This document shows, piece by piece, positions 6,977-34,640 of a stretch of 64,000 nt of DNA. The translations under genes and the position numbers were made by a program. The stretch comes from Zingiber officinale (Eukaryota > Streptophyta > Magnoliopsida > Zingiberales > Zingiberaceae). Every line of letters begins with the position of its first letter. Within the stretch, counting starts at the first letter, position 1. The notes under the pieces are model-generated. The model ran no database searches. It saw only the letters and a program-made list of their open reading frames with translations, and was not told where the DNA came from. The DNA lies in assembly GCF_018446385.1 (NCBI RefSeq), contig NC_055998.1, positions 19,151,173-19,215,172 on the forward strand. Reading direction: 5' to 3'.

Positions 6977-7338
6977 GGGGGTGTTTGGCTAAACTTATTA
7001 AAAACATCTTATAAGATCTAATAGCTTATAAGTTGTTTTAGGAGCTTATAAGCTGTTAGATCTTATTTTAAAAATAAGTTGTTAAAGTGTTTGGGCGAAC
7101 TTATTATAATCAACTTAAAGATATTGATGTATTTGGTATTATAAGATCTTTTTATTAACAAAATTACCAAAAAGGGCATACATCATTATTGCATGTAATA
7201 AAGTTACAATAACTTAAATTAAACATACGTTAAGGATCGATTTTTTTTTAATAAAGTTAACATAAATTTCAAGCAATTAAAAAGTTAAATAACAACTAAT
7301 TAGCAATAATTAAAAGAAAATTTACACCAAACATTATT

Positions 7339-7686
7339 GTGGATCGGTCAGCAGACCGATCCACATCCTTTTTCACCGATCAGGCCATAGCCTGATTGGT
7401 CTGTAAATGCTCTGATCGGTCTGTGGACCGATCAGGCTATAGGTGGATCGGTCCACAGACCGATCCCCCTATCCTTTCTCCCTAACTCCGTTGCCTCCTG
7501 ATCGGTCTACAGACCGATCAGTAATTTCACAGAGGGTTACTGATTGGTTACTGATCGGTCTGGTGACCGATCAGTATCACTAGATCGGTCAACAGACCGA
7601 TCAGTAATTCTCGGTGAGTTCACTGATCGGTCTGGTGACCGATCAGATAACCATAGTATCACTGGATCGGTCTGTTGACCGATCCA
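7339..7686. repeat. Hairpin cluster of GATCGGTC-N4-GACCGATC units inside the Harbinger element
   Basis: At least eight palindromes lie in 350 bp, near 7339, 7412, 7444, 7498, 7551, 7582, 7623 and 7663, with a further variant at 7375. Each has 8-bp arms GATCGGTC / GACCGATC around exactly four bases. The loops include AGCA, TGTG, CACA, TACA, TGGT, AACA and TGTT. Outer base pairs come in two matched classes, CT..AG or TG..CA. The cluster lies between the terminal repeat and the transposase stop codon. Confidence 0.92.
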
Positions 7687-7833
7687 ATGAAGAACTTCCC
7701 AGCCCTAAACCCTAAAGTCTCATTTCAATATAAAGCAAAGTGATATTAATGAAAGCAACAAAGTGAAATATGATCCGGAACAATTTAAGCAATTGAATAG
7801 CAAATACGTGACTAAAAAAATCTAACACTAAAA

Positions 7834-9216
7834 TTATCGTCCACTTCTTGTAATTTCCATAGCAATTGAATCACGCACTGCCATCCAATATATATTGCCA
7901 GGATTATCTTCATTCTCCACCGTAGAGTTTGCTGTAAATATATTGCGTTCGGTAGATGGTTGATAACTTTCATACTCAGCTATTCGGAATGCCTCATCTG
8001 AAACATTTTTCTTTCTTATATAGTTGTGAACGGCCATTGTTGCAAGCACAATTTCTCTTTGTGTATCAATATGATAATAAGGCATATCAGCCAAAATATT
8101 CCATCTTGCTTTCCAAACTCCAAATGTTCGTTCAACACAATTCCTACATGACGAGTGGTAAAAGTTGAATTTTTCTTTCAAATTTCTTGGTGCACGTAGT
8201 TGCAAGGTCCTAGCTCGGCGAAAGTCTTCAAGATGATACCTTATATTTTCACCTTTATAAGGACCCATATATCCTGGCATATGTGAATATCCAGCATCAA
8301 CCAAGTAATATTTTTTTCCTTTTGGATGAGGAAAATTAAGTTCTGGCCTACGAATAGGTTCTCCAAATATTCTATTATCATGAGCAACTCCTTCCCATCC
8401 AGCCCAAACAAATGTAAAACACATATTAAAGTCTACAACTGCTAGAATATTTTGCGTGGGAAAACCTTTGCGTCCAATATATGGGATTGCTTTGCCTTGT
8501 GGTAATCGCGCCTTAACATGTGTGCCATCAATTGCCCCGATGCAATCCTATTAATCATTAAAAACAAATAATTTAATAGATTACAAACGATAAATAAGTT
8601 TCATACATGAACATGTGGTGTTGTTTATTATCTTCAAAATAATATGACATACATCAAAAAATGGCTTGTATCGTTGATGTTGAGGCACATGGTATCCTTT
8701 TCCCTCATTATACTCAGGATGAGGTTTAATTATATCTTCAGCCAACTTTCCAACAACTTTCAGAACTCTATGAAAATGTCTTGAAATAGTTTCACCTGAA
8801 TGATTAAATATCTCTTGCAATAGCCTATTATCTGTACCATGAGCACAAGTCATCAAAAAAATCCCTACTTCCTCATAGATAGACATTCCCCTAGTAGGGA
8901 TCAAATCATAGTTTTGGGTTAACTCATGACATAAATCCAAGAATACAGGTTTTGTCAAACGAAAAGCTTGATAGCACCTTATACTATGGCCATTTAATAC
9001 TTCTTCTATGAATTTATTACCAGTTCGCTCAGATGTACGACATGGAACTTTATGAATATAAGTCTCAAAATATGTTAAAATGCTAAGTGCTATGATTTTG
9101 CATACAATCAGCCATTCTGGATCGTCTTGGAATCCATCTTCATCTTCAATTGGTTCATCCTCACAAAATATATTTGCATCAGTTAAAGCATAGTGTCGAA
9201 CATCCCAAGGCTCCAT
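7834..9216 (-). CDS. PIF/Harbinger transposase (HARBI1-like DDE nuclease)
   Basis: Catalyses excision and integration of the element. Exon 1 is 8653-9216 (ATG chosen at MEPWDVRHY; an in-frame ATG lies ten codons upstream) and exon 2 is 7834-8547. The intron is 105 bp, phase 0, GTATGT to AATAG. The product is about 425 residues, within the family range. An N-terminal HTH-like region (GTDNRLLQEIFNHSGETIS) precedes the catalytic domain. Acidic residues are present in GAIDGTHV, in the VVDF to GWEGVAHDNRIF region, and as Glu in CVERTFGVWKARW. The C-terminal motif AVHNYIRKK is also typical. No stop or frameshift interrupts it. It lies downstream of ORF1 on the same strand. Confidence 0.9.
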
Positions 9217-9434
9217 TAAACTATAGAAGTAATGAACAAAAAACAAGTATGAGATACCAGAACAAAAAACATTGATTAACTTCGATAAATATTACATCAT
9301 GTGTTACCAGTCGAATAAGATTAAATATTAAAGACATAACAAAACTACTAATAAAGTCACAAAATTAGAAAACAATTCATCAACTTCAACTACTGAATTC
9401 CTAGTATCACGGCTACAAACCACTATCAACGACA

Positions 9435-10550
9435 TTAATTTTTTTTGCTCATGTCATGATTATACTTTAACCACGCCAAACGACAATCATTATCAGGTTG
9501 ATTGAGAAAAATTGCTCGCATTTCTTTTTTGCTCAACAAGTTACAAGCGTAACACCAAAGCTCAGTTTTATGCTCTATTCCGGGAATATTCTTTAGTATC
9601 ACCATTGCAGATTCAATATCTTTCTCTGTCGAAGGTGTGGAAGTTACGGTGCTCTTATTTTCTAAATACTTTAAAAGAGAGTGAATATCTTCCTTTAGTG
9701 AGGCTGCTCCAGAAATTTTCTTCTTTTCTTTACCATCTTCTCCATTAAATTTTCTCTTCAACGATGACAAAGATGGAAACACAATGTCATTACCCATATT
9801 ACTTTTTTCTTTGATTCCAAAGCTGGCATCATGCTCGATTCCCCTATCCTCGTTATATTCACTATCATCGATGCCAATATGCCCTTCAAAATCAGGAAAA
9901 TCATCATTTTCTTTCATAAACTCTTCATTGTCATCAATGCAATGCACAGTTTGTCGACTTGGTGCCCTTGCCCTTTCTCCCGTGGCAGCAACATCAGAAA
10001 ATAATTTATCATACCGAAACCACACGAGTGATAAATCTTTATTTCTAAATTTGGCATACTCTCCATTTTCCTGCAATAATAAAGTATATTATTATCAATG
10101 AACGAATAAAAAATTTTATGCAAATAAAATTAGAAAGATTACCCTAAGTTTTGTCTCCCACCATTCATCGGATGCATCAAGTGAATTATTTGTAGGATTC
10201 CAACCAACTCCAGTTTCCATGTGCATCAACTTCTTGAATAATAACCACTCCTTTTTCATGGAATCCCAATGGTTCCGAAGCTGCTTGTACACATAATTTT
10301 GTCCAGTTGCATCATTAAATTTTCTCACTAAGTTTTTCCATCCATTCGTATTAAAGTGACTATTTGGTCGATTTCCTAGTAAAATTTCTTCTTCGCACAA
10401 ATCAACAAATTTCAGGGATAGAAATGTAGTCCATCTTGCATTTGAACGTCCTTCACTTTGTTGATTTGTTTTAGTTGAAATTTTACTTGTATTCTTACTC
10501 AAAGTTGGATTTGACGTGACTCCTTTGTTTCTATTGTCTTGATTTTCCAT
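9435..10550 (-). CDS. Harbinger ORF1, Myb/SANT-like DNA-binding protein
   Basis: In PIF/Pong elements this partner binds the terminal region and helps bring the transposase to DNA. Exon 1 is 10143-10550 and exon 2 is 9435-10070, joined by a 72-bp GT-AG intron in phase 0; the product is 347 residues. The trihelix/Myb-like domain covers about residues 35-135, with RWTTFLSLKFVDLCEEEI, GWKNLVRKFND, QLRNHWDSMKKEW and DEWWETKLR. After the junction ENGEYAKFRNK completes the domain. An acidic stretch follows, then a C-terminal region with MRAIFLNQPD. An alternative upstream ATG at 10607 would add a hydrophobic segment and is less likely. The frame is intact. Confidence 0.88.
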
Positions 10551-11117
10551 TTCCAAACTAACAAAATAAAACAACAACCAAAAAAATAAATGAGGAAGTA
10601 CAATCAATAATGGAGCTTCGATAGGGGAATGATAAAACTAAAAAGATGATATTGATAATTTTTGCTAATTTACGATTCATGTTTCTATGCCACAATATAG
10701 TGTACAAGTGGTTCCTGTTGGTCCAAATTAAGCATATTCAATGAAATTCTTGAAACTGAGATAAATCTACAATTGGTGATCATGTAAATATTTTCCTCAT
10801 CCCAATGATAAATCCTCTCAACACACTGGTATGTTTTGGATACCAAAGACTATGGAAAAAAATTTAACAGATTTGAAGAGACCTTCATATTTTTATCCAT
10901 ACATAAAGACACTTTGACCACAAACTATAAGAGACCTTCAAAGCATGAGTACTGATAAACAGATTTGAAGACAAAAACATGACAAGTGCTGGAAGAGAAG
11001 AATATTATTCGATGTTAAAAGTCACTAATCTTGCAACAACCATTGAAAGATAAGCATATAGAAAGAAATTTGATAGAAAAAATAAATTCTAACGATACAT
11101 TGTTGAATTTCTGCACA

Positions 11118-11317
11118 GACGAAGAAGATATAACGCTGGAAGAGATGTCGACGAAGAAGATGACAAGCGCTAGAAGAGATGTCGACGTAGAAGATGACAA
11201 GCACTGGAAGAGACGCCGAAGAAGATGACAAGTGCTGGAAGAGAAGTCGGCGAAGAAGATGAGAAACGCTGGAAGAGAAGTCGGCGGAGAAGATGAGAAA
11301 CGCTGGAAGAGAAGTCG
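11118..11317. repeat. 34-bp minisatellite, about six copies
   Basis: Six head-to-tail copies of a 31-34 bp unit containing GAAGAAGATGACAAG and GCTGGAAGAGA. It lies upstream of ORF1 inside the Harbinger element, where its promoter or 5' leader would be. The last two copies are nearly identical, so the array is recent. Confidence 0.85.
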
Positions 11318-11536
11318 ACGGCGCTAGGTTTATAAAAATTAATTGAGGATAAGATAGAGATTTATGAAATTATATAAGGATATTTTAGAGAAAAAAATTA
11401 TTAAATAAGATCTTTTTTAGAAAAGTAGGGTCTTCCATACTTTTTTAAAAATAGCTTATAAGCTTTAAAACAGCTTATTTTGACAACTTATAAGCTGTTT
11501 GAAAAAAAAGTTACCAAACAAATTTGAAGAGCTTAT

Positions 11537-13207
11537 TGTTGGGATCTTAGATGGCTAGAGGGGGGGGGGGGGGGGGAATAGCCTCTTTGAAAACTTAAAC
11601 ACAATCTTTCTTAAAGAAAAACTTGTTAGCACAGCGGAAGTAGAAAACTAAAACGGAGGAAGAAAGACACACACAGCAGACACATGGATATACAAGGTTC
11701 GGGGATAACTTGCCCCTACTCCTTGGCGTGTCCGTAAGGAGGACGACTCCTTGATCTTTCGGTAGATCACACCCCGGACAAAATCCGGCTAAAAATGTCT
11801 CCTTCTCGGTGGAGCAACCTCTCAACAGAGTCTCAGTTGATTATAGAATTAAGCACAAGACTTACAGTGGCTGAGAAGAATAATCAGATGAGCTTACAGC
11901 CACGCGGAGAAGAAACAGAGCAGAGAGCACACAACAACCTTCTTAGCAAGGAGCTCACAGCTTCACCAACTTGCTTTCTCAAAGGATTGATCGATTGGAA
12001 AACAGAGAATTCAGTTTTTTTTCTTTCTGAACCTCTCTTCTTCCTTCTTATGTCTCTCTGCTCGAAGCACCGCCGCCTGCAGAATCGCTGCTGCCAACAA
12101 GGCGTAGCCAATCACCTCTCCTCCTCATCTGGTTCTCTGAACCCATGCCAATAGAAATCACTGGCGTCTCTGGATACGAACCAATAAGTAGAGGTCAAAC
12201 TGAGCGCAGCCCAATCGCAATCAGATTCGTCAGTGAACGTTAATGCCTCAAATGCATCTGTTGCAGCAAATCACAGTGTAAAGAGCACTTGTCTTCTTCT
12301 CTTAATGAAGCTTAATTTGAATTCAACCATGAGAGTGTGACCTGCAACCTGCAAGCTAAAAAGACTCACAGTAGATGGTTAAAAACAGATGGGTGAAAAC
12401 AAATACGGCAATCAGAAAAAGTACATGCAAAACAAACAATACCGTGGGTCGGTCTGCAGATGCTTCTGAATCATCGCTGATCGGTTTGGCGGCATCGATC
12501 GGGAACTATCGATCGGTCTCGGGCCGATCGGATGTCGATCGATGCGGCCGATCGGGCGTATCTGATCGATGCGAGACCGATCAGATGTCGCTCTTCCTAA
12601 GCGCTCACGGCCTCGATCGGTCTCGGCCGATCGGTAAAATCACGATAGCTGCGATCGATTTACGATCGGCCGATCGATGTCGATCGGTAGCCATCGATCG
12701 ATTCCTGATCGGTCGCCAGACCGATCAGGTGTCCAAGGTTTCACTGGATCGGTCTGCCGACCGATCCAGCTTCTTGACTCAGTTCGGGTCGAGCCCTCTC
12801 TGACCTAGTCCGGAGAAACGAGCTCCCTAGCCCTCTCCGACTTCATCTGGTCCTAGAGAACGAACTACCGAGCCCTCTCTGACTTCGCATGCCAAGTTTC
12901 CTTCTTGGACTTTTCAACACCAGATGTCCGATCACCCTTGATCCATCTGGATTTTCCCTTGCCTAGCTTCACTCACCAGGACTTGCACCTAGCTTCACTC
13001 ACTAGGGTTTTCACCTGGCTTCACTCACCAAGATTTCCAATCTGCCTGGCTTCACTCACTTTCCAACTGCCTAACATCCCAGTTAGGACTTTCTCAATCA
13101 GGTCAACGAAGTCAACCTAGATTAGTAATCAATCTGAGTTAAATATCTGATACAAACTTAAATCAGTGTCAACAGCAAAACAACATCCAGGTCAGACTGT
13201 ATCAACA
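11537..13207 (-). mobile_element. Solo LTR of the SIRE-like copia element
   Basis: The LTR runs from TGTTGGGATC to GTATCAACA (TG...CA) and is flanked by the 5-bp duplication CTTAT at 11532-11536 and 13208-13212. No internal region accompanies it. It inserted in the right subterminal region of the Harbinger element. Its left part matches the truncated LTR at 18663-20174, while its right part matches the LTR at 28177-29859. It therefore looks like the product of recombination between the two LTRs of one element. A run of 17 G at 11560-11576 replaces 7 G in the other copy. Confidence 0.92.
12446..12769. repeat. Hairpin cluster, rearranged form, in the solo LTR
   Basis: Complete 8-4-8 palindromes remain near 12705 (loop GCCA) and 12744 (loop TGCC). 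The stretch between contains many GATCGATC-like and half-palindrome fragments, as if units had been deleted into one another. The same disordered state occurs at 29084-29420, but not in the ordered copy at 19445-19710. Confidence 0.8.
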
Positions 13208-13272
13208 CTTATAAGCTCCAAAACAGCTTATAAGCTGTTTTAGAGAGCTAATAAGCTCAGCCAAACACCCTC

Positions 13273-14285
13273 TTAAAGGAGGAAGCTATAGTGTTCATGG
13301 CATCGCGATTTGAGAGAAGGAACAGAGGAGCGCGATGGAGGAGAGCATCACACGAGAGGGAGGAGCTTCGTCCCATCCTCTATTGATCGAGGGTTTCCAT
13401 TTCCACCATCACCACCGCCAGCCACATCGCAAGCCACTACCGACCACCGATTGGGGATTTCCAGAGGTTCTCACACTATCATCTTCACCACCTGATCGGC
13501 GCGCCAAGCAAAGGATCTTCTTCCACCTTCCATCACCGATCACCAGAGATCCATCCTCCACCAGGATTAATGGGTTTACCTTTATTTGCCACTCCATTCC
13601 AGCTCCGGTGATCCATCTCCATTTTCATCTGCAGCCGCCATCATCAGACGCCACCATCCGATTGCCGCCAAGCGTCTTCACTGCTGATCCGATCTGGCAC
13701 GAGCTTAGGATGCCCTCGGGTTGTAAGCACGATTTAGATCCATATATTCCTCCATGTTTGACCTTCATGTTTTGGATGAACTGTAATAGATTAAACTTCC
13801 CAGATTCTAGATTTGGTTCAGATTTGAATGTTTAGTTTCGATTCATGATTCATTTTCATTTTCTTCTTTACATAATTGAGGAATTAGGGTTACATTGATT
13901 ACTGTTATTGGTCATTTCTTTTAGTGCATTAGTTAAGCTTAGCTTAGATATCTATTTCTCTAATAATTTCCTATTCGATGCAAGTATGGTAGGGTAGACT
14001 AGGTTTCATTAAATGCCTTAGGTTTTATTAATTACTTCTTGCTTCTTAAATTTCCTTACAATTTTATATGATAATAGCTTAGGTCTATTTCAATTGTTAT
14101 TAGTTTAGGGATCTCAAACCAATCCCCGAATCAATAACAATTCAATCCTAAGCTTTATCATGCATTGACTACATTCGTTGGGAGACGACCCGGGTCATTC
14201 CCTATGCTATATTAGTGTAGAGAAGTGTTTCAATACTTTATTATTTGATACTCATTTCATGATAGAAATTGGGGTTTATCAAATT
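13273..14285 (+). mobile_element. Ty3/gypsy (Athila/Tat-type) LTR-like sequence, copy A
   Basis: The 3' part has the phrase GGGAGACGACCCGGGTCATT and a long AT-rich tract. At 14280-14300 follows TTGGCATCCTTGTCGGGGA, a degenerate form of the tRNA-Asp-type primer site known in Athila-like elements. The Harbinger element interrupts the 5' side. An open frame of 166 codons at 13335-13835 also exists in copy B, but it is His/Pro-rich with no known domain and is probably non-coding LTR. Confidence 0.5.
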
Positions 14286-14623
14286 TGGCATCCTTGTCGG
14301 GGAAGGAAGACACGCGTGAAGCAAAGGCTCAGTGATCCTGATCATCTTCACCATCATCGGCCGTCGGATCTCCATCCACCATTGGAGGGTTAAAAGATTT
14401 TCCTTCCCTATCCACTGCATCTAGCTCTGGTGATCCATCTCCTATACCATCCGTAGACATCATCATCCATCAGTCCTTCTCCGTTAAGGTCCGATCATCT
14501 TCCAATCAACCACCGTACATTCCACCCCAAGAAGCCAGAGTAGAAAGGGATTTTCCTACTCGTCGGGGATCTCCAATTGAGGCATCCATCTCAGTCGACT
14601 TCAACTCCTCCAATCATCCCCAT

Positions 14624-15089
14624 TAGGGCTGCAAACGAATCGAACCGGCTCGCGAGTTTTTAGACCCGGCTCACGAGCTTTTCAAGCCAGCTCAAAAAAT
14701 ATTCGACTCGTATTCGAATTTATCGAATTCGAGTCGAACTCGAACATGTTCGAACTTTTTTTCAAGCCGAACTTGAGCTCAAATTATATTGTTTGAGCCG
14801 CTCGTGAGCCTTAATATTTATTAATAATATAAGTTAAATATATATTAAATAAATAAATTTCGAGCCTTTTGAACTTATTTTCGAGTAATAATTCGAATAG
14901 TTCGTGAACATGTTCAAATATTTCGAGCTGAACTTGAACCGGGTCTTAATTCGAACCGAACTCGAACTAAACATTTTGAATTTTTCAAGTTTTGAATCGA
15001 GCTCGAAATCGAATATACCTATTTCTAGCCGAATTTGAACCTTAAATTTTTCTATATATTCGGCTCAATTCAATTCGTTTACACCCTTA
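14624..15089. mobile_element. hAT-type MITE, copy A
   Basis: A 466-bp element with inverted ends TAGGGCTGCAAACGAATC and (reverse complement of the other end) TAAGGGTGTAAACGAATT. It is flanked by the 8-bp duplication ATCCCCAT at 14616-14623 and 15090-15097. The 8-bp duplication and TA-G ends indicate the hAT superfamily. The interior is rich in TTCGAA-like words and has no coding capacity. Confidence 0.9.
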
Positions 15090-15097
15090 ATCCCCAT

Positions 15098-15735
15098 CCA
15101 ATTTTTTATTTGCCGTTCTTCTTCCTCTCTACAATTTGATCTGGAACAAGCTTGGGAATGCCGTAGTTTGGTTAGTGAGCCCCTTTTTTATTCAGATATT
15201 CTCTTGTTATGATGTGTAGATCATTTTCTATGAGATTTAGTTGCTGAATATGCTTAGTTAAATTCCCTTACACACTTTTATTTGAATTCAAATTCAATTC
15301 TAGTTTAGTTAATAGCATTTGATAGTTGGTTGTGTTGTTGTTCTTGTTTGATTCTCATTAAACTGTAGGTTTACTTGCTCTTTAAGTTCATGAGTTGATT
15401 TGAATTGTTAGTATAGTTTATTTTGAATCTTTTGTCAATTGTATGAACTTTAGTTCTTTGATTAGTACTTTCATGAATTGTTTTTCAATGTAGTTTAGCA
15501 AGCCTCAGTTTTATTAGTTGCATCTTTTCATTCATGTTTGTGGGTTAGTGAAAGTCTAATTTTGTTAATTGCAATTGTTTCTCTTTCCTACCCTTAGATT
15601 TAGCAACTTACAAACAAACCCCTATTCTGAATAAACTTAATCATAGGATTATCATGCATCACCTATATTCCTTGTGAGATACGACTTGAGTCATACCCTA
15701 TGCTACATTAGTATAGTTAGGGGGTTCGGTATTTT
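15098..15735 (+). mobile_element. Second gypsy LTR-like sequence, copy A
   Basis: It resembles 13680-14285: GATCTGGAACAAGCTTGG against GATCTGGCACGAGCTTAGG, and CATACCCTATGCTACATTAG against CATTCCCTATGCTATATTAG near the ends. The two LTR-like stretches are old relatives lying head to tail, with hardly any internal sequence between them. Confidence 0.45.
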
Positions 15736-15739
15736 ATTT

Positions 15740-16698
15740 GTATCCATTACACTACATAGTAAGTGAGGTTAAAGGGGTCATCAACCTCCTAAGCAGTTAG
15801 CGAGTGAAGCTAAGAGGTCATTCAGTCTCTAAGCTTGCCAGAATGCTGAGCCATTATAGTAAGTGAGGCTAAGAGGATTATTTACATTCGAGCCATTAGT
15901 GAGTGGGGCTAAGAGGGCTATTCAATCTCTGAGTATGCTAGTATGTCGAGCTGTTAGAGAGTGAGGCTAAGAGGGTTATTTGCTTCCAAGCCATTCATAA
16001 GGCCGCTATGCAAGAAGAGATAGACAAGCAAGAGGCTGCAATTTCATTTGATAAATCATGACTGCTTACAAGAATGAATTACAGAAAAGGAAAAACACAT
16101 AACAGTAGTACTCGGGACTAGACCCTACAAGGCCTTAAATGGGTGGTGTGGCATGTCAAGGTCGTTTAAGTTCTTTTCCTTAGGGATCATTCAAGTAGTA
16201 GGGCCCATAGTTGAGTCGGTGAGTGACTCGGTGAGGTCAATCCCAACGCGTCTCTAGGTTGCTGACATCCCCTATGAGCTGTACTTTTTTCCAAATGAAG
16301 TCTCTGACATGCAAAGAGCGAAGGATAACATGTTTGTTGTATGCTTGACACATGCATTGTCGGTAGGCTATAATGTGTGTTTCCGCTTTCTCTTGGGTCT
16401 CTGCAACAAGGTCTAATTCGAGAAGTCTCTTATCTGAGTTCTCCTTGACATCTCCATATGCATTGATCCACACTAATTAGAGCCACTATAGATTGGGATC
16501 TCTGCTTCTTCATCATAAATTAAGTGGAAAGCAGTCATTCTGGTGTTGTCACGTGGGGTTGTTTGATAAGCTCAGAGGACATTGGGAATTTTTTTCTACC
16601 CATTTACTTTTGACATGATCAAGCTTGATGTTCAATCCTCAGATGAGTTCTCAATTGACTATTTCTGTTTGATCATTGCTTTGAGGGTAATAGACCAA
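15740..16698 (-). mobile_element. 3' end of a Tat-like Ty3/gypsy element, copy A
   Basis: On the minus strand 16237-16473 encodes an integrase C-terminal remnant (RLLELDLVAETQEKAETHI, then YNKHVILRSLHVRDFIWKK). A broken GPYYLNDP-like polyprotein tail follows. The region 15740-16000 holds degenerate repeats of GTGAGGCTAAGAGG, probably LTR. The element continues on the far side of the gag-only chain at 52413; 16699-16703 is the GGTAA target site. Confidence 0.7.
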
Positions 16699-16703
16699 GG
16701 TAA

Positions 16704-17987
16704 TGTTGGTGCAAGGAACATCAGACGATCGAACATGTATTTTGATAATGGCAAAGGGTTCAAAGTTAAGGTTACTTGTTATCTAACAAGTATGAATAAG
16801 CTTGTAGGAAAGTCCTAAGTGTTCTTAGGTAAAAAGTTCTAGTGAATTCTAGGCAAGTTGAAACCCCCTAGGGGGGAGGTAACCCTAGGTCCTAGGGGGT
16901 GGTAACCCTACGTTATGGAAAATCCTAACTGCGGTTAGATAATGAAAACTTGGCGGGTCAAGGACTTTGGGCGAAATTTTAGAATTGATGACTCTAGGTG
17001 AAAATCCTGAGGGTCGCCGATCAGGTGGAAGATTGAATGTGTCGTGGAGCAGATGTCCAGTATGAAGTCCTGAAGTCTCGGAGCTGAGTAAAAGTACAAA
17101 TAGTTTGGAGGACCGGTCTAGCAAAATGTAATTTCTCCTGAGAGAAGTAGGTGATGACGCGTTCCTCGAAGAGGGAACAATAGTAGGTGAGGACGCATTC
17201 CTCAAAGAGGGAACAGTAGGCGTCGATTTGACCTAGAGTTTCAGTGAAACTAAAAACCAGGATCGGGCAGTCCGAAGAATGTCAAAACTTATATTTCATT
17301 ACATATTATTGTCTGGACTAGCTTGTTTTGCAGAAAATTGAACGAAAACTGGTGGTTCGAGCGCCCGAACTCCCTTCGGGAGCCCGAGAAGCTTCTGCCC
17401 TCGTGAGGCACTTGGGCAGGCACCTTTGCGGTCCAGGCGCCTTCGCTGTCTGGGCGCCTTCGCGGTCTAGGCACCCGGAACGCCAAACTTTATCTCATTG
17501 CCAAGCTGGAGCATGCTAATTAGACGGGCCTACGTCACAGTCCAAGCACCCGGAAGGGATCCAAACGCCCGAAATAGCCTATAAAAGCAGCATTCGACCA
17601 ACACCTCAAAAATAAGATTCCAAGCAACTTTCACTTCTTCATGCTACTGTGAAAACGCTTCCTCGACGCTCAAAAGCTGCCCCGACGACCACTGCGCCGA
17701 GGATTTAAATTTCCGAATCGTTGGTATTCTTTAATTTTACTAATTACTTATAATCATTGTACTTGTATTCTCTATAATTAATTAGTGATTGCCCAACGAA
17801 AGCACTCTCACGTGCGACCCTTGGAGTAGGAGTCACCACATGTTCTGAACCAAGTAAATCTTGGTGTGTTTGCGATTGTTTGTTTTCGTCTTTATTCCGC
17901 TGCCTTTACTCTATTTGATTATTTTTAATCAAACGTGAAAGCCACGAGCACTATTTATCCCCTCTCCTCCAGCACAACGATCTTACA
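16704..17987 (+). mobile_element. LTR of the gag-only copia element, copy A
   Basis: TG...CA limits: TGTTGGTGCA to GATCTTACA. It is preceded by GGTAA and followed by TTAGTATCAGAG, a decayed initiator-Met primer site. It includes a promoter-like CTATAAAAGC near 17580. A GC-rich block with GGGCGCC and CGCCCG half-palindromes lies at 17350-17560. Confidence 0.9.
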
Positions 17988-18226
17988 ATTAGTATCAGAG
18001 TGGGGTTGCTTCGAATAGGTGAAACCACCATTCAAGCAAGTGTTTTGTGGTTTAGTCGTTAAATTTTTGGAGTCGATCGAGATCGGTATAATTGCCCCTT
18101 CTAATCATCTTTCTTGCAAGTTGGGAAACACCACTTGAGTTCGTTAGTTGTTTTTATCTCCCGCACTACTAATCCAAGACTAGGTCTTGGAACAAGTCTT
18201 ATTTTTCTATGTGCGAGATTTTTTCA

Positions 18227-18662
18227 ATAGCCCACCAAGAAGGTTACACCACCACACACCCTCCAGTGTTCTCCGACGAGGATTTCGGCTATTGGAAGAT
18301 CTGAATGGAGTACCACCTCAAGACCCAAGTGGAAATATGGATCATAATCCAAACCATATTCACATTTCCCACTGAAGAAGGAGTACTCGTCCCCTGCGAC
18401 AAATGGGACGCACGGACTTGTTAGAAGATCGAAGCTAATGCAAAGACAATCCAAACCCTCCAGTGTAGCTTAACCAAAGAAGAATTGAACCGGGTAGGTC
18501 CCTTCAACAATGCAAAGGAGTTGTGGGAAAAATTGATCGAGCTGCACGAGGGCACTTCCGACACTAAGGTAAGCAAACGAGACTTAATTTTGAATAAATT
18601 ATACAATATTAAAATGCAGAATAGTGAGTCGACGAGTCAACTCCACACTCGGATCCAAGACC
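18227..18662 (+). pseudogene. Truncated gag of the gag-only copia element, copy A
   Basis: Copia Gag reading frame with decay: the start codon is ATA rather than ATG, and an in-frame TGA follows the DFGYWK region. The later stretch encodes NRVGPFNNAKELWEKLIEL. The frame is cut at about 18660, where it runs into copia LTR sequence through a short microhomology (AAGAC). The intact continuation is seen in copy B at 35311 onward. Confidence 0.85.
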
Positions 18663-20174
18663 CACACAGCAGACACACGGATATACAAGGTTCGGGGATA
18701 ACTTGCCCCTACTCCTTGGCGTGTCCGTAAGGAGGACGACTCCTTGATCTTTCGGTAGATCACACCCCGGACAAAATCCGGCTAAAAATGTCTCCTTCTC
18801 GGTGGAGCAACCTCTCAACAGAGTCTCAGTTGATTATAGAATTAAGCACAAGACTTACAGTGGCTGAGAAGAATAATCAGATGAGCTTACAGCCACGCGG
18901 AGAAGAAATAGAGCAGAGAGCACACAACAACCTTCTTAGCAAGGAGCTCACAGCTTCACCAACTTGCTTTCTCTAATGATTGATCGATTGGAAAACAGAG
19001 AATTCAGTTTTTTTCTTTCTGAACCTCTCTTCTTCCTTCTTATGTCTCTCTGCTTTACTGGCTCAAATCACTGCCGCCTGCAGAATCGCTGCTGCCAACA
19101 AGGCGTAGCCAATCACCTCTCCTCCTCATCTGGTTCTCTGAACCCATGCCAATGGAAATCACTGGCGTCTCTGGATACGAACCAATAAGTAGAGGTCAAA
19201 CTGAGCGCAGCCCAATCGCAATCAGATTCGTTAGTGAACGTTGATGCCTCAAATGCATCTGTTGCAGCAAATCACAGTGTAAAGAGCACTTGTCTTCTTC
19301 TCTTAATGAAGCTTAATTTGAATTCAACCATGAGAGTGTGACCTGCAACCTGCAAGCTAAAAAGACTCACAGCAGATGATTAAAAATAGATGGGTGAAAA
19401 CAAATACGGCAATCAGAAAAAGTACATGCAAAACAAACAATACCGTGGATCGGTCTGCAGACTGATCCACGCTTTCTGGATCATCGCTGATCGGTCTGGG
19501 GACCGATCAGGAACTAATCTGATCGGTCCCCAGACCGATCAGATGTCGCTCATTCCAAATGCGCACAGCTTCTGATCGGTCTGCGGACCGATCAGGCACT
19601 AATCTGATCGGTCCCGAGACCGATCAAATGTCGCTCTTCCCAAGCGCTTACAACAGTAGCATACTGAGTATTCTACTGAGTTCTCACTGATCGGTCGCCG
19701 GACCGATCAGTATCAACACAGTATGCTACTGAGTGTTTACTGATCCGGGTCGAGCCCTCTCTGACCTAGTCCGGAGAAACGAGCTCCCTAGCCCTCTCTG
19801 ACTTCATCTGGTCCTAGAGAACGAGCTACCGAGCCCTCTCTGACTTCGCATGCCAAGTTTCCTTCTTGGACTTTTCAACACCAGATGTCCGATCACCCTT
19901 GATCCATCTGGATTTTCCCTTGCCTGGCTTCACTCACCAGGACTTGCACGTAGCTTCACTCACTAGGGTTTTCACCTGGCTTCACTCACTAAGATTTCCA
20001 ATCTGCCTGGCTTCACTCACCAGGACTTTCCAACTGCCTAACATCCCAATTAGGACTTTCTCAATCAGGTCAACCAAGTCAACCTAGATTAGTAATCAAT
20101 CTGAGTTAAATATCTGATACAAACTTAAATCAGTGTCAACAGCAAAACAACATCCAGGTTAGGCTGTATCAACA
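18663..20174 (-). repeat. Truncated 3' LTR of the SIRE-like element
   Basis: Matches 28302-29859 and the solo LTR but lacks their first 125 bp or so. The inner end is GTATCAACA followed by the polypurine tract. This copy holds the ordered hairpin cluster. Differences from the other LTR (for example TTCGGGG against TTCAGGG near 18690) are numerous enough to show an old insertion. Confidence 0.9.
19445..19710. repeat. Hairpin cluster, ordered form, in the 3' LTR
   Basis: Six 8-4-8 palindromes begin near 19445, 19487, 19519, 19572, 19603 and 19687. Loops are TGCA, TGGG, CCCA, TGCG, CCGA and GCCG. Arms are GATCGGTC / GACCGATC, with one arm substitution in the first unit. The outer pair is CT..AG in five units and TG..CA in the first. 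Confidence 0.92.
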
Positions 20175-20190
20175 ATCTCCCCCTTTTTGT
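20175..20190 (-). other. Polypurine tract of the SIRE-like element
   Basis: On the minus strand CAAAAAGGGGGAGAT abuts the 3' LTR start TGTTGATACAG. Its position and purine content match the plus-strand primer of copia elements. Confidence 0.85.
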
Positions 20191-20747
20191 TGTTTGACAA
20201 CACAATTTAAGTTTAGATCAGAAATGCTCATATACCCATAATTTTTAGGGAAATCAGGATCCTCCCCCTAAGACTGATATACCTTAGTTATCTTCTCCCC
20301 CTTTTTCATATCGACTCGATGAAGTCAATTTATCACTTAACTTAACTTAGTCGAATAGGTGCGAATTAGGTAAGAGGATTCAAAAAGACTCAAAGTCATC
20401 CTCTCCCCTAACATCAACCTTTCATTCATTTCTAAACTTAGTTATCTTCTCCCCCTTTGTCAAACACCGAAAAGGAGCGAACAAGGTAAGATAACTTAAA
20501 GAGCTCCCCCTTAATCCATACTGTCTTCTGCTTAATCCCCCTAGAATTCCTTCTAAGTGTATTTTAGGACAGTGAATGAATAAAGAAATAAAAGACATAT
20601 GAAGAGTATAGTAACAACCAAGAAAAGAACAGCAAATATATAAGGAAGAATGAGTAGCATAACAGTAAGTAGCATACAACCAGGTCAGGCATAAGTATCT
20701 AGCAACCATCATCCAAAACATACAATCAATATGATCATTAAAAAGTA

Positions 20748-22025
20748 TCAGTCATCTTCCTCAAGACGAGGAACATCTCCAGTGTCGGCTGGAGGAATAT
20801 CTTCCGGAGGCGGGATGCTGCTGCTCGAAAGTGTATGGTCCGGGTGGTGCTGCGGAGGTGGGTATCTGGCCATCCACCCTCGAAGCAGTTGCTGAGTCAC
20901 CAACTGCTGGCTGCGCAGATCGTCGTAGCGCTGGTCAATCCGTATGCGTAGTCCATCGAACTCAGCAGCCATCATCTCCTTGTGGCGATCAAAGCGACTC
21001 TCCATCTCGGCGATCTGTCAGCGCAGATCAGGATCGGCCTCTCCATCGTCAGCAGCAGGAGGAGCAGCAACAAGAGCAACCTGTCGTCGAGGTAACTCAC
21101 CTAATGGCCTCCCATCCTTCCACCTAACTGCCCCAGCCTGTCCTAAGATTCCAGACTTGGAAAATGCACGTTTCCCAAGTCGACAATCCTGCCTAACCAT
21201 CTTTACCATCCTCCCCCTAGAGACGTCAACACCCAGGGACTCAAGCCAATCAGTAATTACATGCCCATAAGGCATATAGATGGTGTAAACGCTTGGCTCG
21301 CTATGGGATATGATAGAAGTATAGACACTCGACATGATATCAAAGTCAAGACGCCTACGCAACCCATAAAGCATCAGACAATGATACGGTCGAATCTCTG
21401 CCAATGATTTAGAAGTAATAGGTAGTAGACAGTTTGTGACAATTTTGAAAAGAATGTAATCAGGAGCAGAAAGGCCAAGGGCTGAAAATGTAGGAAAGTC
21501 GACATCTAACTCATCTAATCCATCCGGTCTCGAATGTCTAAAGAAGTACTCATAAATCGAGTCAGATGAGACATCAAGAGGATGAGGCACGAGTTCAGGC
21601 AAAGCAGGATAGAATGAGAACACCGTCCCCGAACACAAACGACAGCTTAAATAATCAAAGAAGGCAATTAAGCTTAAATCAACGGTTTGCTTAGCCACTC
21701 TTGATCTATAACTACCATCAATAGTCTGATGAAGGTTGTTATAGAATTCAGAAACTAGGTCAAGGTTGATATCCCTCTCTAAATATACCAAGGAATCAAG
21801 TTTATAGTAGGCTATGGTCTCCGTAATCGTTGGACAAAACTCATTCATGTATTTTTTATCGACTGATCTACATGGGAGCAACTTGAAGGTCCTTTCCTTA
21901 AAGGATTGTTCAAACTGTTGGTTGGGAAATCTTCCCGAACTGGATGGTTGAGGTCGGGAGGTTTCTTTGGATTTGGATTTATCTTTGGACTTGGAAGTAC
22001 CCTCACCTACTGGTTTCTTCCTAAG
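20748..22025 (-). pseudogene. Third ORF of the SIRE-like element (envelope-like / plant transposon protein type)
   Basis: An open frame runs on the minus strand from about 22025 to 20748, interrupted by a single in-frame TGA at 21018-21020. Conceptual product is about 425 residues. An N-terminal Ser/Lys-rich region (KSKDKSKSKETS) leads to a globular region (KYMNEFCPTITE, SRVAKQTVDLSL, YGHVITDWLESLGV). After the stop come a probable coiled coil (ESRFDRHKEMMAAEFDGLR, DQRYDDLRSQQL) and a Pro-rich acidic tail. Extra ORFs after pol are known in SIRE/Maximus elements and are called envelope-like; a plant transposon-protein domain is another possible name. No membrane segment is evident, so an envelope role is doubtful. 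Confidence 0.6.
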
Positions 22026-23365
22026 GGGTTAGGAACATGACACTGAAGCAAAGGAGCACAACCCGAGCACCACCCCAAATCACTGAATCAGTGAGAAATG
22101 AAACAAATGAAGTACTAACGAGAAATAGAGCTGATGAAGTTACCTTGGAGCCATTTCTCTGGTTTTCGGAGAAAGAAAGAAATGCTGAGGCAGGAGGGAG
22201 GCGTCTAGGGTTCGGCGATCAAGGGGAAGAAGAAACGGGGGAAAAGAGAGCCGGTTAGGGCTTCGTAGGTAATGGGAAAGGAGGGAGTCGGGAGGAGTTA
22301 AAGCCAGGGATCGATCTATTCCCTGATCGGACGGCTGTTCGATCAGGAGAAATCCTGAACGATCAGATTCACCCGAGTGAATCGTCGACACCTGATCGGT
22401 GCCCGGACCGATCAGGGGGCTTTCTTCGTGCGCTGATCGGTCACTGGACCGATCAGATACCAAACAGAGAGTTTGGTTTCGTTCTGGATCGGTCAACAGA
22501 CCGATCCAGACTTTCCTGATCGGTCTGTGGACCGATCAGTGTCTGATAACCCGATTTCAGTAATTTCAGTAACTGAAATACTGAGCCATGAAGTCTGAAG
22601 AATCCGGAACTCAAGAATTCATAACTTCCCTAAGACATACCCTAGAACTTAGGAATCACCAAACACTAATATATTCGAAATATGATTTCTTATGGCCTGA
22701 ACTTGTTCATAATCCAAAAGTTTCAGATCTTATCAAACAAAACCTCACACTAACTCCAACCATATGGAGTTCTGTCTTCTTGGTCCTTAGAAGTTCAAAA
22801 CATATTTTTGCTAAACTCATCTCTATGATCAGGTTCAAATTTGTCAAAATATAAACAACTTGTCCTAATTTTTCAATCAAGGCATGAAAGCTGAAATTTT
22901 TTATCCTTGTTATGTTTAGTTTCAAGTTTGTCAAAATATATCCAAGTTGCTATTATTTCCTTTAACAACCTATCATTTTATCAATCAAAGTCATGAAATG
23001 AACCAAACAACAATACCAATCAACACATCAACCATCAACCATAATTAGATAATTTCTAGGCAAAAGTCCAACCAAGATTCCTTGGTTGGAATATATGAGT
23101 AAGATCTAGGAGCCAAATACACATGAATTATGTAATGACCTTCCCCATACTCAATTAATGTCTCTTCAACCTAATTATTCAAGGGATGCATGATACATTT
23201 TGAATAATTTGGTTGATCCTAGCATCTCACCCCATATTTAGCAAACAAAAACAATTTGTTAAACCTTATAGTTTGTGTGAGATGTCCCTAAGTTGCCCAA
23301 ATTAATTTCCTAATTTTTCTTGTCATTTTAATGGTCCTTATTGATCATGATGTGGTCAACATGAC
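22026..23365. other. SIRE-like internal spacer between RNase H and the third ORF
   Basis: No gene is supported here. The 22323-22539 hairpin cluster lies in it. Between 22590 and 22950 the sequence has a twice-repeated TTCAAGTTTGTCAAAATATA-like phrase. The rest is AT-rich. Confidence 0.6.
22323..22539. repeat. Hairpin cluster in the SIRE-like internal region
   Basis: Palindromes begin near 22323 (decayed), 22392 (loop CCCG, one arm mismatch), 22433 (ACTG), 22484 (AACA) and 22516 (TGTG). The same two outer-pair classes occur as elsewhere. It lies outside the LTR, so it is separate from the LTR clusters. Confidence 0.9.
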
Positions 23366-26300
23366 TTATTGAGCCAAACACATTCCCAATTCCCTCCTTA
23401 AATGACTAAATTCATTTTCCGGAAGGGGTTTTGTGAAAATGTCGGCTAAGTTTGACTTTGACTCAACATATGTGAGTGCAATGTCTCCCCTAGCTACGTG
23501 ATCTCTAATGAAGTGATGACGCACTTCAATGTGTTTGGTCCTTGAATGATGGACTGGATTTTTCGTTAGGTTTATTGTGCTAATGTTGTCACACAACACT
23601 TGCACTCCCTTATACGAAAGTCCATAATCTTCTAGAGTGTGAATCATCCATAACAATTGTGATACACTCTCTCCCATGGCAATGTATTCAGCCTCGGTCG
23701 TGGAGAGAGCAACACAATGTTGCTTCCGACTTGACCAACTAACTAATGATGAACCTAAGAATTGGCAACCCCCACTAGTGCTTTTCCGATCCAATTTGCA
23801 CCCAGCATAATCGGAATCGGTATAGCCTATCAAGTCAAAAGACTCTGTACGAGGGTACCATAGACCTACTCGAATTGTGCCCTTAAGGTATCTCAATATT
23901 CTCTTAACTGCAATTAAATGAGATTCCTTGGCACAGACTTGATATCGCACATGCCCACAGCAAAAGTATGTCTGGTCGACTAGCTGTGAGATATAGAAGA
24001 CTACCAATCATGCTTCTATATTGCGTTAGATCAATTGGTTTTCCACTCTCATCATTGTCAAGGCGAGTGTTTGTCGCCATTGGAGTGGACACTTCCTTAG
24101 AGTCACTCATATTGAATTTTCTAAGCATCTCTTGAGTGTATTTTGTCTGATGGACATAAATTCCATCTCGAGTTTGTTTGATTTCAAGTCCGAGGAAGAA
24201 TGTCAACTCTCCTACTAGACTCATCTCAAACTCACTTTCCATGTGAGAAATGAATTCATTCAAATAGCCCTTGTTATTTGAGCCACAAATTATGTCATCG
24301 ACATACACTTGGGCTACAAAAATATTTTCACCATCTCTACGCAGAAATAGTGTTGGGTCTATTTGGCCTCTTACAAAGCCCTTTTCTAATAGGTAAGTTG
24401 ACAACCTTTCGTACCATGCTCGAGGTGCTTGTTTAAGCCCATAAAGAGCTTTCTTGAGCTTGTACACGTGGTTTGGAACTTCGGTATTCACAAACCCCGG
24501 TGGTTGTTCAACATAGACCTCTTCTTTGATGAATCCGTTTAAGAAGGCTGATTTAACGTCCATTTGATAGAGCTTGAAACCTCTATGTGCAGCAAAAGCT
24601 AGCATCAAACGAATGGACTCTAATCGGGCCACGGGAGCATAAGTCTCATCATAATCGAGACCTTCGACTTGACTATAGCCCTTGGCTACAAGTCTTGCCT
24701 TGTTTCTTACAACTTCTCCCTTTTGATTTAACTTATTTTTGAAGACCCATTTAGTTCCAATAATGGTGGTCTTCTTAGGTCTAGGAACTAAGTCCCACAC
24801 TTGGCTCCTTTCAAATTGACCTAACTCATCTTGCATAGCTAAGATCCAATCAGGATCGTGCAATGCCTCATCAAATATTTTTGGTTCAATCTCTGAAATC
24901 AATGCGACTTCATTAGACTCATTTCTAAAGAATGACCTAGTCCTAACCCCTTGTTGGATGTCTCCCACAATTTGGTCTTGGGGATGACTAGTGGCTAACC
25001 TAGACTGCCTTGGTGTTGGCGGTGCCTCATGAGTGGTCTCACTCGGCACAGGCAAGGACTCAATATCAGGCAAAGGATCAGATTGAGTTCTTTGTTGCCT
25101 TTGCTCATCAACATCAGAGTCAACTTCGACTCGTTCTTCATTTTGATCATTCAAACTTAGATTTCTAAGTTCAAATTGAATTTCTCCTACATCCCTTGGT
25201 TGATCATTTAAGTTAGGGATTTCTTCAAAAGCTACATCAGAGGACTCTTCAATCAATTTAGTCCTATTGTTGTAAACTCGATAGGCTTTGCTGGTAAGAG
25301 AGTACCCGACCAGTATCCCTTGATCAGCCTTAGCCGTGAACTTCCCAAGATGATCCTTGGTGTTCAAGATAAACACCTTACAACCAAACACCCTAAGATG
25401 TTTAATTGTAGGCGGTTTCCCAAACCAAAGTTCATGGGGAGTCTTTCCTAAAAACCTATGTATTAAAACTCGATTTTGCATATAGCAAGCTGTATTCAGC
25501 CCATAAGTAGCTCGGTAGTGAGTACTCATTGAGCATGCTTCGTGCAGCCTCTTGTAGGACTCGGTTCTTTCTCTCCACAACCCCATTTTGCTGTGGGGTC
25601 CTTGGAGTAGAGAACTCATGCATATATCCCTTTTCTTGACAAAACTCTAAAAACCTATGATTTTGAAATTCCCTACCATGATCACTTCTAATGGTTTTAA
25701 TTGTTGTCGATTTTTCATTTTCAGTTCTTCTACAAAAGGAAATAAAAATATCTATAGTTTGGTCCTTATGTTTCAAAAAGAAAGTCCATGTGTATCTAGT
25801 AAAATCATCAACGATTACCAAGCAATATCTACTTCCATTCAATGATATTACACTACTGCAATCAAATAGGTCCATGTGCAATAAATCTAAAGTAGTAGAT
25901 GTACTTACAGTGCTTTTACCTTTATGAACAACTTTTGTTTGCTTACCCTTTTGACATGCATCACATAGTTTGGTCTTGTGGTACTTGATGCTGGGTAAGT
26001 CTCGCACTAATCCTTGGTTGGCCAACTTCCGGATGTTCTTCATGTTTACATGTGCCAACCTTCTATGCCATAGCCAAGACTCTTCTTCTTTCGACATGAA
26101 ACACTTAATCAAAGCATTAGTAGCACTTTTAAACGATACTTGATAAATATTATCAACCCTTGTGCCTACTAGTATTGTGTCAAGTGTGTCAATGTGTTTA
26201 ACCAAACATTGACTTGAATGAAATTCAATTGTGTAACCCGTATCACACAATTGACTGACACTTAGGAGATTAAAAGTCATCCCCTTGACTAGAAGGACAT

Positions 26301-26490
26301 TCTTGATATGGAAACATTCGGATATATGAATGTCTCCAACTCCTACAACCTTAAGGCTACCATTATTACCAAAAGACACATTACCTCTACTTTTGTTTTG
26401 AATGGTTGTAAACAGTGATTTGTCCCCGGTCATGTGCTTGGAGCATCCACTATCAACAAACCAAGTTGATAGATGCTCCCCCTCGACCAA
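23366..26490 (-). pseudogene. copia pol remnant: protease, integrase, reverse transcriptase, RNase H
   Basis: Three overlapping frames show a once continuous polyprotein. The protease has WFVDSGCSKHMTG. The integrase has a zinc finger (HRRLAHVN, then CDACQKGKQ) and core motifs DLLHMDLF, SDHGREF and [11 protein letters not shown]. Reverse transcriptase has [25 protein letters not shown] and the catalytic YVDDII. RNase H has YTDSDYAGC and STTEAEYIA, ending LADIFTKPLP. Frameshifts fall near 25500 (integrase/RT) and 23970 (RT/RNase H). All catalytic residues I could check are kept, so decay is by frameshift rather than by active-site loss. Confidence 0.93.
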
Positions 26491-26681
26491 TGCCTACAAG
26501 ACACGGAAGATAGAGGTTTTAGGTACCCAAATCTTGGGACCTAATGCTTCTACAACGAAAGACCTAGGAATCCATGCCTTGGTCATACCTTTCCTAGTTC
26601 CATGAGCCCTAGAAACATATGATCTACTATTTTGAGTTCTAGACATTAGAGAAATGAAACTCGACTCCTTGGGTTGATACC

Positions 26682-28117
26682 CTAACCCTTGTAGACTGCC
26701 CTTTGGCCATTTAGAATCATGTCTAGAGTCTTAGAGCTAGTTGAGAACTTCTCAAGCATTTTCTTGAGTTTCTCAACCTCACCCTTTAAAGTCTTGTTCT
26801 CATCCTCAAGGACTTCTAGATGTAGGTCATCGACCTCATCTTCCCTAATGGTCCTTAAGGTTTTTACTTCTTCTTTTAACAATTTATTTTCTGTTTTTAA
26901 CTTTTTAAGCAATGTAGATAAGTGAGTGATAATCTTATAACACTTTTCTATATGAGAAGAGGTTACCTCTTCATCATCCGACGATGATGAAGCCGCGGTT
27001 GAAGCGTCGCTCGAGTCTCCCTCACTTCCGGAGTCCGAAACCTCCCTTGCCATAAGTGCTAATTGTCGTGTGCTCTTTTCCATCTTCTCTTCTTCCTCCG
27101 ATGAGCTTGATGAGGACTCATCCCAAGTGGCCTTGAGAGCCTTCTTCTTCTTGACTCTTTCCTCCTTATTTTTGGCTCGTTCCTCCTTCCTCTTTAATTT
27201 TGGACACTCGCTCCGAATGTGTCCTTTCTTGCTACACTCATAACATATAACATTAGATTTATCAAAATTTTGATCATTAGTTTTACCTTTTCCTTTGTAT
27301 CTTCGGCTTCTTCTCATAATCCTTCTTACGAAGTTCGCCATCTCACTTGATGATGATCCACTTTCATCATCGGATTCGGAGGAAGAGGTGGATGAGGAAA
27401 TCTCCTTTTCCTTCTTCTTTTCCTTCTTCCTTCTTCCATCCTTGCTCTTTGGTCCTGCAAATAAAGCAATACCCTTCTCTTTTGACCTTTGTTAGCAAGC
27501 TCATGAAGTTCCATCTCACAGAAAAATTCATCTAGTTTAACAATGGAAAGATCCTTGGATACCTTGTAGGCATCTACCATAGATGACCACAAGGCATTCC
27601 TCGGAAAAGATTTAAGAGCGTACCTTACTAGATCGCGATTCTCCACTCGTTCGTCCACAGAGTGTAGACCGTTGATGATCTCCTTGAATCTCCCATGAAG
27701 TTCACTTACCGTTTCATTGTCCTTCATGGTTAGATTTTGGAGCTGATTCAAGAATAGGTCCCTCTTGGCAATCCGAGAATCTCGAGTTCCTTCTTGGAGC
27801 TCGATGAGTTTGTTCCATATGTCTCTTGCACTCGAGAACGGACCTACCTTGACGAGTTGGTCCTTGGCGATTCCACATTGCAAGGTGACCATAGCCTTGG
27901 CATCGGCTTGTGCTTTGCGGAGTTGTTCGGTAGACCACCTTGACGAATCGAGTTCCTTACCTTCTTCATCCTTTGGTGGTGTGTAACCTTCCTTGACTGA
28001 GAACCACATGACAATGTCGGTCTTGAGGTAATACTCCATGCGGCCCTTCCAATATTGAAAATCTGCTCCTTCGAAGTAGGGTGGTCGATTTGTGCTAAAG
28101 CCTTCCTTCATAGCCAT
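26682..28117 (-). pseudogene. copia gag remnant of the SIRE-like element
   Basis: Starts at an ATG 60 bp inside the 5' LTR, after the primer site. The N-terminal capsid-like region begins FSTNRPPYFEGADFQYWK and includes KVGPFSSARDIWNKLIEL and KSFPRNALWSSMVDAYK. A frameshift near 27480 is followed by a second frame with a CCHC zinc knuckle (CYECSKKGHIRSECPK), an acidic Ser-rich stretch and a Leu/Lys coiled coil. Gag is clearly homologous to that of the gag-only element at 34879-35809. Confidence 0.9.
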
Positions 28118-28162
28118 CCTTGTTTGCTCTTTTGGGTGTTAATCCGAATCAAAGAGCCCCTC

Positions 28163-28174
28163 GCTCTGATACCA
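28163..28174 (-). other. Primer-binding site of the SIRE-like element
   Basis: On the minus strand TGGTATCAGAGC lies 2 bp inside the 5' LTR. It is complementary to the 3' end of plant initiator tRNA-Met. Confidence 0.93.
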
Positions 28175-28176
28175 CT

Positions 28177-29859: not shown

Positions 29860-29924
29860 CTTATAAGCTCCAAAACAGCTTATAAGCTGTTTTAGAGAGC
29901 TAATAAGCTCAGCCAAACACCCTC

Positions 29925-31741: not shown

Positions 31742-31749
31742 ATCCCCAT

Positions 31750-32387: not shown

Positions 32388-32391
32388 ATTT

Positions 32392-33350: not shown

Positions 33351-33355
33351 GGTAA

Positions 33356-34639: not shown

Positions 34640-34640
34640 A

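Follow-up and report, generated by a model that had tools for sequence, protein, structure and literature searches.

Why should a short palindrome of near-constant geometry recur in transposons that are unrelated to one another? The question is raised by a 64,000-nucleotide stretch of the Zingiber officinale genome (assembly GCF_018446385.1, contig NC_055998.1, positions 19,151,173 to 19,215,172), hereafter the window, which holds five clusters of the pattern GATCGGTC-N4-GACCGATC, two 8-bp arms separated by a 4-bp gap. We refer to each such unit as a box. The clusters lie in a Harbinger DNA transposon, in the long terminal repeats (LTRs) of a Copia retrotransposon and in the internal region of the latter. 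A first-pass annotation, made from the nucleotides alone, had seen in them a unit that is copied or selected either as a hairpin, resembling the mobile palindromes of some organelle genomes, or as a site for a dimeric protein. Judged by their sequence and position, the boxes are RM boxes, a known feature of Sirevirus retrotransposons, in a new form. We consider it probable, on balance, that a dimeric DNA-binding protein which controls transcription binds at these arrays, and that unrelated elements have gained them block by block.

The pattern itself is well supported. At up to three mismatches the window holds 24 matches, against a mean of 0.09 and a maximum of 2 in 100 shuffles, and all 24 fall within the five clusters already flagged. 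Nineteen are exact: eight at 7342-7684, two at 12707-12766, five at 19489-19708, three at 22435-22537 and one at 29161. Imperfect boxes are found at 19448 (one mismatch), in the 22323-22539 cluster (two) and in the 29084 cluster (two), and the clusters at 12446 and 29084 are mostly degraded. The genome scan that had been proposed as a check (3.09 Gb in 211 contigs, with the reversed pattern as the control) returned 156,429 exact boxes and a control count of 0. When the same arms were counted at all gaps from N0 to N30, 212,117 matches were obtained (control 4), 74% of them at gap 4; N3 accounted for 11,803 (control 1) and N5 for 19,089 (control 0), and the remaining 24,796 were distributed over 28 other gap lengths, some spanning two boxes. 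These counts rule out an artefact of loop length. Gap 4 is dominant for the GATCGGTC arms but is not their sole gap, and the earlier statement that the loop is always four bases holds as a preference only. The loops are also less variable than had been thought: among the 100 listed for GATCGGTC boxes, T is absent from position 2, A occupies position 3 in three and C position 4 in one. Boxes with gap 3 or gap 5 are often near one another, as at C1:1254610-1254739 and C1:614303-614501, as if a different gap rule applied in some arrays.

RM boxes were described by Bousios et al. (2010, PMC2829016) as palindromes whose CGG-CCG core is missing from only one of 13 elements. They are repeated many times within the upper half of the Sirevirus LTR, starting 200-400 bp into the LTR and extending over 300-500 bp, with extra copies upstream of env; they are CpG-rich, and a CpG island and a TATA box soon after the array belong to their description. 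They were called Sirevirus-specific and absent from other Ty1/copia elements; sites for stress factors were suggested, and no binder was known at the time of that description. The Sirevirus hallmarks given there include several polypurine tracts ahead of the 3' LTR and an AT/TG attachment site (PMC2829016). The Copia element of the window (18657-29859, minus strand) has both. Five AGGGGGAG tracts are present, the terminal one at 20177-20184 being followed by AT/TG at the LTR start and the others lying at 20269, 20302, 20456 and 20511, and the gag and pol open reading frame (ORF) pieces (23366-28138, minus strand) encode Retrotran_gag_2, zf-CCHC, SH3_retrovirus and RVT_2 (E-value 5.5e-81) domains, as in Sireviruses. 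Taking at least eight copies of a palindrome per element as the mark of RM boxes, this element carries 6, 5 and 3 matches (up to three mismatches) in its 3' LTR, linker and 5' LTR, respectively.

The positions of the arrays agree as well. The clusters beginning at 19445, 29084 and 12446 are within LTRs, in the upper half: in the 3' LTR (18657-20174, minus strand) at 19448-19708, about 465-725 bp from the LTR start, with five exact boxes and one with a single mismatch; in the 5' LTR (28296-29859, minus strand) at 29087-29388, with one exact and two imperfect boxes; and in a third LTR copy (11664-13207, minus strand) at 12446-12769, with two exact boxes. The arrays start about 440-465 bp into the LTR and are about 265-335 bp long, just outside the published ranges. 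The cluster in the internal region, which had been left unexplained by LTR ancestry, sits at the published linker position: it occupies 22325-22537 (three exact and two imperfect boxes), upstream of a 336-aa ORF (21018-22028, minus strand) that we assign to env by position only, its sole Pfam match being Transposase_32 below the cut-off. The observed/expected CpG ratio is 1.10 in the LTR array and 1.19 in the linker array vs 0.69 in the window, with a GC content of 0.54 (stretches of 217-266 bp). The CGG-CCG core is present in GATCGGTC-N4-GACCGATC. On our own parsing of Table 3 of PMC2829016, the half-site CGGTC/GACCG recurs in the RM consensus sequences of Osr10 (gap 1), Osr8 (gap 1) and Vitis (gap 0), and a gap of 4 is present in those of Osr9 and Citrus, which are thus precedents for the gap seen here. 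Because palindromy, core, and LTR and linker positions match RM boxes, and polypurine tracts and attachment site match Sireviruses, we regard the finding as a known feature in a new form.

Further arms with the same 4-bp gap, GATCGATC-N4-GATCGATC and AATCGATC-N4-GATCGATT, both without the CGG-CCG core, emerged when 25 stretches of 10 kb were sampled at sites picked regardless of content. Genome-wide, the latter pattern is found 101,245 times at gap 4 out of 106,690 at gaps 0-30 (95%; reversed control 61). Both arms change together between classes while the gap is nearly constant. A general preference of palindromes for gap 4 was not seen, other arms showing no excess in the first 200 kb, where 59 8-bp palindromes have gap 4 (32 without the three arms), 39 gap 3 and 25 gap 5. 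The symmetry of GATCGGTC boxes continues outside the arms: in 40 distinct boxes the next two positions pair in 38/40 and 36/40, where shuffles reach at most 33 and 34, and the usual combinations are CT..AG and TG..CA. At a distance of 29-33 bp, neighbouring boxes tend to mirror one another and their loops to be complementary (73/120 letters vs a shuffle mean of 51.6, with 0/2000 shuffles reaching 73), a further departure from free loop variation, whereas boxes 57-130 bp apart tend towards identical loops (59 vs 43.4; 1/2000 shuffles reach 59). Kissing loops were considered for the complementary doublets and set aside, as inverted duplication explains them equally well. Palindromes of 8-4-8 geometry with other arms also occur within the arrays of loci L042, L043 and L039: TTCTCGCG-ATCG-CGCGAGAA, CTCTCGCG-TATG-CGCGAGAG and GATCAGGC-CATA-GCCTGATC.

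How, then, did an array come to lie in a DNA transposon? The host element (6982-11520, minus strand), which from its DDE_Tnp_4 and Myb/SANT domain pair we take to be of the PIF/Harbinger family, has imperfect terminal inverted repeats at 6982-7015 and 11487-11520 (34-nt arms, 74% complementary), a transposase ORF piece at 7834-8547 (minus strand; DDE_Tnp_4, E-value 2.8e-20) and a Myb/SANT-like ORF at 10116-10637 (minus strand; Myb_DNA-bind_3, E-value 3.5e-21). Its array, eight exact boxes with their spacers, occupies 7328-7720, in place of native Harbinger DNA. Genome copies were searched for with window 6977-8000, and 40 of 4,066 candidates were scored, giving 130 matches. Among these scored candidates, six places including the window continue from the left Harbinger flank into the array; 13 match the Harbinger element on either side of different DNA (314-381 bp in 11, 531 and 802 bp in two); and 19 match the array alone, at 81-92% identity. 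Three loci (L034-L036) are array-free Harbinger copies with A+T-rich DNA at that site, and one (L037) has the array as in the window. L038 and L039, both from the array-only group, are LTRs akin to the Sirevirus LTR of the window (about 89-90% at the LTR start, 69-74% mid-LTR), and their arrays align to the Harbinger array, spacers included. The right joint of the Harbinger array occurs three times in the genome at up to three mismatches, among 23 copies of that right flank.

The alignment of boxes and spacers together rules out an independent origin of the Harbinger array. The first-pass annotation had held that the spacers are unrelated and that LTR ancestry does not reach this cluster, naming the tracing of all clusters to one ancestral element through their spacers as the observation that would speak against it; for this cluster the spacers lead to a Sirevirus LTR array, and both statements fail. 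The most economical explanation is that about 390 bp of array sequence from a Sirevirus LTR subfamily displaced resident DNA in one Harbinger lineage, which afterwards rose modestly in copy number. Mobile organellar palindromes insert one at a time, and relatives have the corresponding sites empty. Here the sole empty-site comparison concerns about 390 bp gained as a block rather than an individual box, single-box empty sites not having been sought, and the arrays match RM boxes, so that a separate mobile palindrome of organellar type need not be invoked.

Arrays in unrelated transposons, as had been reported for the window, extend to a third kind of element. Nine of the 25 sampled stretches hold boxes, and four of these nine (L015, L017, L026 and L028) represent one Ty3-Gypsy family, assigned by a Pfam domain scan of ORFs for L017 and L028 and joined by alignment and ORFs for L015 and L026. 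In L015 and L028 the arrays are inside LTRs that start with TGTAACG and end with CGTTACA, the L028 LTR being followed by the primer binding site TGGTATCAGAGC. The Gypsy LTR arrays are of the GATCGATC and AATCGATC classes. In L026 the GATCGGTC boxes sit where there is no alignment to the Gypsy LTR, and only its AATCGATC box was counted as Gypsy. The other five stretches (L009, L012, L016, L019 and L027) have polypurine tracts and attachment sites of Sirevirus type; four match gag or pol and L027 the env-position ORF, and for L016 and L027 the boxes are assigned to their element with less certainty. The AATCGATC list supplied eight further loci: L044 alone is Gypsy, whereas five (L040-L043 and L047) have matches to Sirevirus LTR loci and two (L045 and L046) to the linker array of L019, the matches being short in some cases. 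The occurrence within Ty3-Gypsy LTRs and in a Harbinger lineage departs from the Sirevirus specificity stated for RM boxes (PMC2829016). As an observation in its own right, L019:1-6541 is Sirevirus-like, with gag (605-aa ORF), no pol between primer binding site and polypurine tract, an LTR array and a linker array; this element is probably non-autonomous.

In the mechanism that we favour, the boxes would be palindromic cis-regulatory sites, whose arms measure 8-10 bp and whose gap is mostly 4 bp. A putative dimer would occupy each box, with one half-site per subunit and the gap setting the distance between subunits, and the arrays in the LTR and before env would drive or tune transcription of the element. 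Arrays would grow by local, partly inverted duplication. Whole arrays also move between elements, from a Sirevirus LTR to the Harbinger lineage and probably between Sireviruses and the Ty3-Gypsy family; they could spread in this way since an array would act in any setting that supplies the same factor. Of the two readings offered at the outset, the dimeric-protein site is the better one, because half-sites change together, the gap is near-constant per arm class, published gaps are as short as 0-1 and an array is found in a DNA transposon; a mobile hairpin is not supported.

An exchange of arrays between Sireviruses and the Ty3-Gypsy family, in either direction, is likely, though not proven, and is supported less strongly than the Harbinger capture, the RM identity or the presence of arrays in Gypsy LTRs. 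For the Gypsy arrays only, the alternative is convergence, in which they arose on the same factor with no transfer from Sireviruses; we hold this to be possible but rather unlikely. After masking of the boxes, the spacers from L015, one L017 array, L028 and L044, all four of them Gypsy arrays, were compared with other spacers and with 100 dinucleotide shuffles. The sum of the ten best scores reached 275 for the Sirevirus linker (shuffle maximum 217), which argues against convergence, and 232 for the Sirevirus LTR (220); there was no excess for GATCGGTC arrays (204; 210) or control DNA (218; 237). The overall spacer similarity is modest, an initial comparison of single loci gave small excesses, and the lack of likeness to GATCGGTC-array spacers also suits convergence. 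A spacer motif, CTG[CT]..CGCG, is common to the two groups and points the other way, although it was picked after the data had been seen: it occurs 9 times in 2297 Gypsy, 3 in 1858 Sirevirus-LTR and 2 in 890 linker spacer bases, 0 in 1546 of GATCGGTC arrays and 17 in 239,600 of background, and is weak. Spacers of 31-33 bp in L040-L047 and the Gypsy arrays have a common motif like CTGTGCTCGCGAG, likewise picked after the data had been seen, which is perhaps a second protein site.

The dimer-site reading has also to be weighed against two others. The transcribed boxes could fold as RNA hairpins that act in element RNA or are diced to small RNAs silencing in cis and trans. The LTR array does fold strongly (-161.6 kcal/mol, z -12.97, 0/100 shuffles), an inverted doublet gives a 24-bp stem (-50.9 kcal/mol), a 4-nt loop is suitable, and a small-RNA excess has been reported on maize Sirevirus palindromes (PMC10760457, PMC5311732). 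Such folding, however, follows from palindromy of any cause, and an array is present in a DNA transposon too. On our parsing, published RM boxes with gaps of 0-1 (PMC2829016) leave no room for a hairpin loop unless pairs are opened. We regard hairpins as a serious rival, though an unlikely one, and both may hold, with the sites serving the element while their folding exposes it to silencing. Palindromes could, finally, be functionless products of inverted local duplication and template switching, the Harbinger capture being a chance gap repair. The inverted doublets and larger inverted repeats within arrays would fit, but gap 4 is kept across differing arms, other palindromes have no preference for it, and the arrays recur at the positions published for RM boxes; we find this explanation very improbable.

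Several observations weigh against a dimer site of fixed geometry in RM-type arrays, or against parts of that proposal. The boxes at N3 and N5 are numerous. Flank pairing is not clearly above shuffles in 21 GATCGATC and 14 AATCGATC boxes. Helical phasing of the boxes is suggestive only: vector strengths are 0.53, 0.62 and 0.74 near 10.25-10.5 bp in three sets, and the test on distinct spacings fails (580/2000). A TATA box soon after the array was found only as CTATTTTT, about 60 bp after the 3' LTR array, with none in the 5' LTR. Two of the seven sampled loci with a Sirevirus polypurine tract and attachment site have no box (L022 and L023). For the exchange, the best single Gypsy-linker spacer pair scores 35, below the shuffle maximum of 37, and only the sum of ten exceeds its shuffles.

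The remainder of the window provides context for these elements. A 7.1-kb direct duplication (11536-18668 and 28176-35320, 97.9% identity) includes a Sirevirus LTR, the third LTR copy being part of it, and the Kimura two-parameter distance between the LTR copies of its two halves (0.034) is smaller than that between the two LTRs of the intervening element (0.074). Outside two LTR starts (13207-13280 and 29859-29930) the DNA resembles the ends of Harbinger elements or miniature inverted-repeat transposable elements (MITEs) (GGGTGTTTGGCTGAGCTTATTAGC...), and the Sirevirus may have inserted into a Harbinger- or MITE-like element. At 53553-55986 several self-inverted matches of 180-660 bp (70-89% identity) form a long palindrome-rich stretch apart from the box clusters. 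ORF translations further indicate a papain-like protease and a RING-type protein; taken with the Copia and Harbinger proteins, this gene content is suggestive of a flowering plant. The Rfam scan of the window at gathering thresholds gave 0 matches, and the NCBIfam scan of the reverse transcriptase ORF gave 0 families.

As far as literature searches show, three aspects are new: the scale, the 4-bp gap across arm classes, and the occurrence of such arrays in Gypsy and in Harbinger elements, where one capture can be followed by comparison with copies that lack the array. More than 250,000 exact boxes of two arm classes with a near-constant gap make the identity of the protein that reads them testable, and the Harbinger lineage makes it testable whether gaining an array helps an element; regulatory DNA is here documented moving between transposon classes. 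Arrays in three unrelated kinds of transposon suggest that all may use the same control protein. More tentatively, and at odds that we put below even, Copia-Sirevirus, Ty3-Gypsy and Harbinger elements might share and trade one module read by a single dimeric factor, host- or element-encoded, and so form a guild, with the arm classes GATCGGTC, GATCGATC and AATCGATC recording the shifting specificity of that factor.

The closest known system is that of the RM boxes (PMC2829016), which are likewise repeated CpG-rich palindromes in many copies per element, in the upper LTR half and before env, with the CGG-CCG core of the GATCGGTC class; the coreless GATCGATC and AATCGATC classes have a parallel in Tnd-1. 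They differ in their arms and in gaps, which we parsed as 0, 1 and 3, and as 4 for Osr9 and Citrus, vs mostly N4 here, and were described as Sirevirus-specific, unlike the present arrays. A 2023 maize study (PMC10760457) reported the small-RNA excess on Sirevirus palindromes and found the same palindrome, CACCGGACNNNGTCCGGTG, in Helitrons; its arms and gap differ from ours, its second host is a Helitron and not a Harbinger or Gypsy element, and the passages cited do not trace a capture. The VANC motifs of VANDAL elements (PMC5735166) are also dense arrays of short protein-binding motifs in non-coding element DNA, evolving by tandem duplication with their binder, but are described there as non-palindromic, in one orientation, rare outside VANDAL21 and bound by an element-encoded protein, a kind of binder that was not searched for here. 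The heat-responsive elements of Brassicaceae COPIA retrotransposons (PMC5059998) resemble the boxes in that LTRs of several families have repeatedly gained sites for host factors through duplication; they are sites for heat-shock factors, and the abstract of that study mentions neither palindromes with a fixed 4-bp gap nor transfer between superfamilies.

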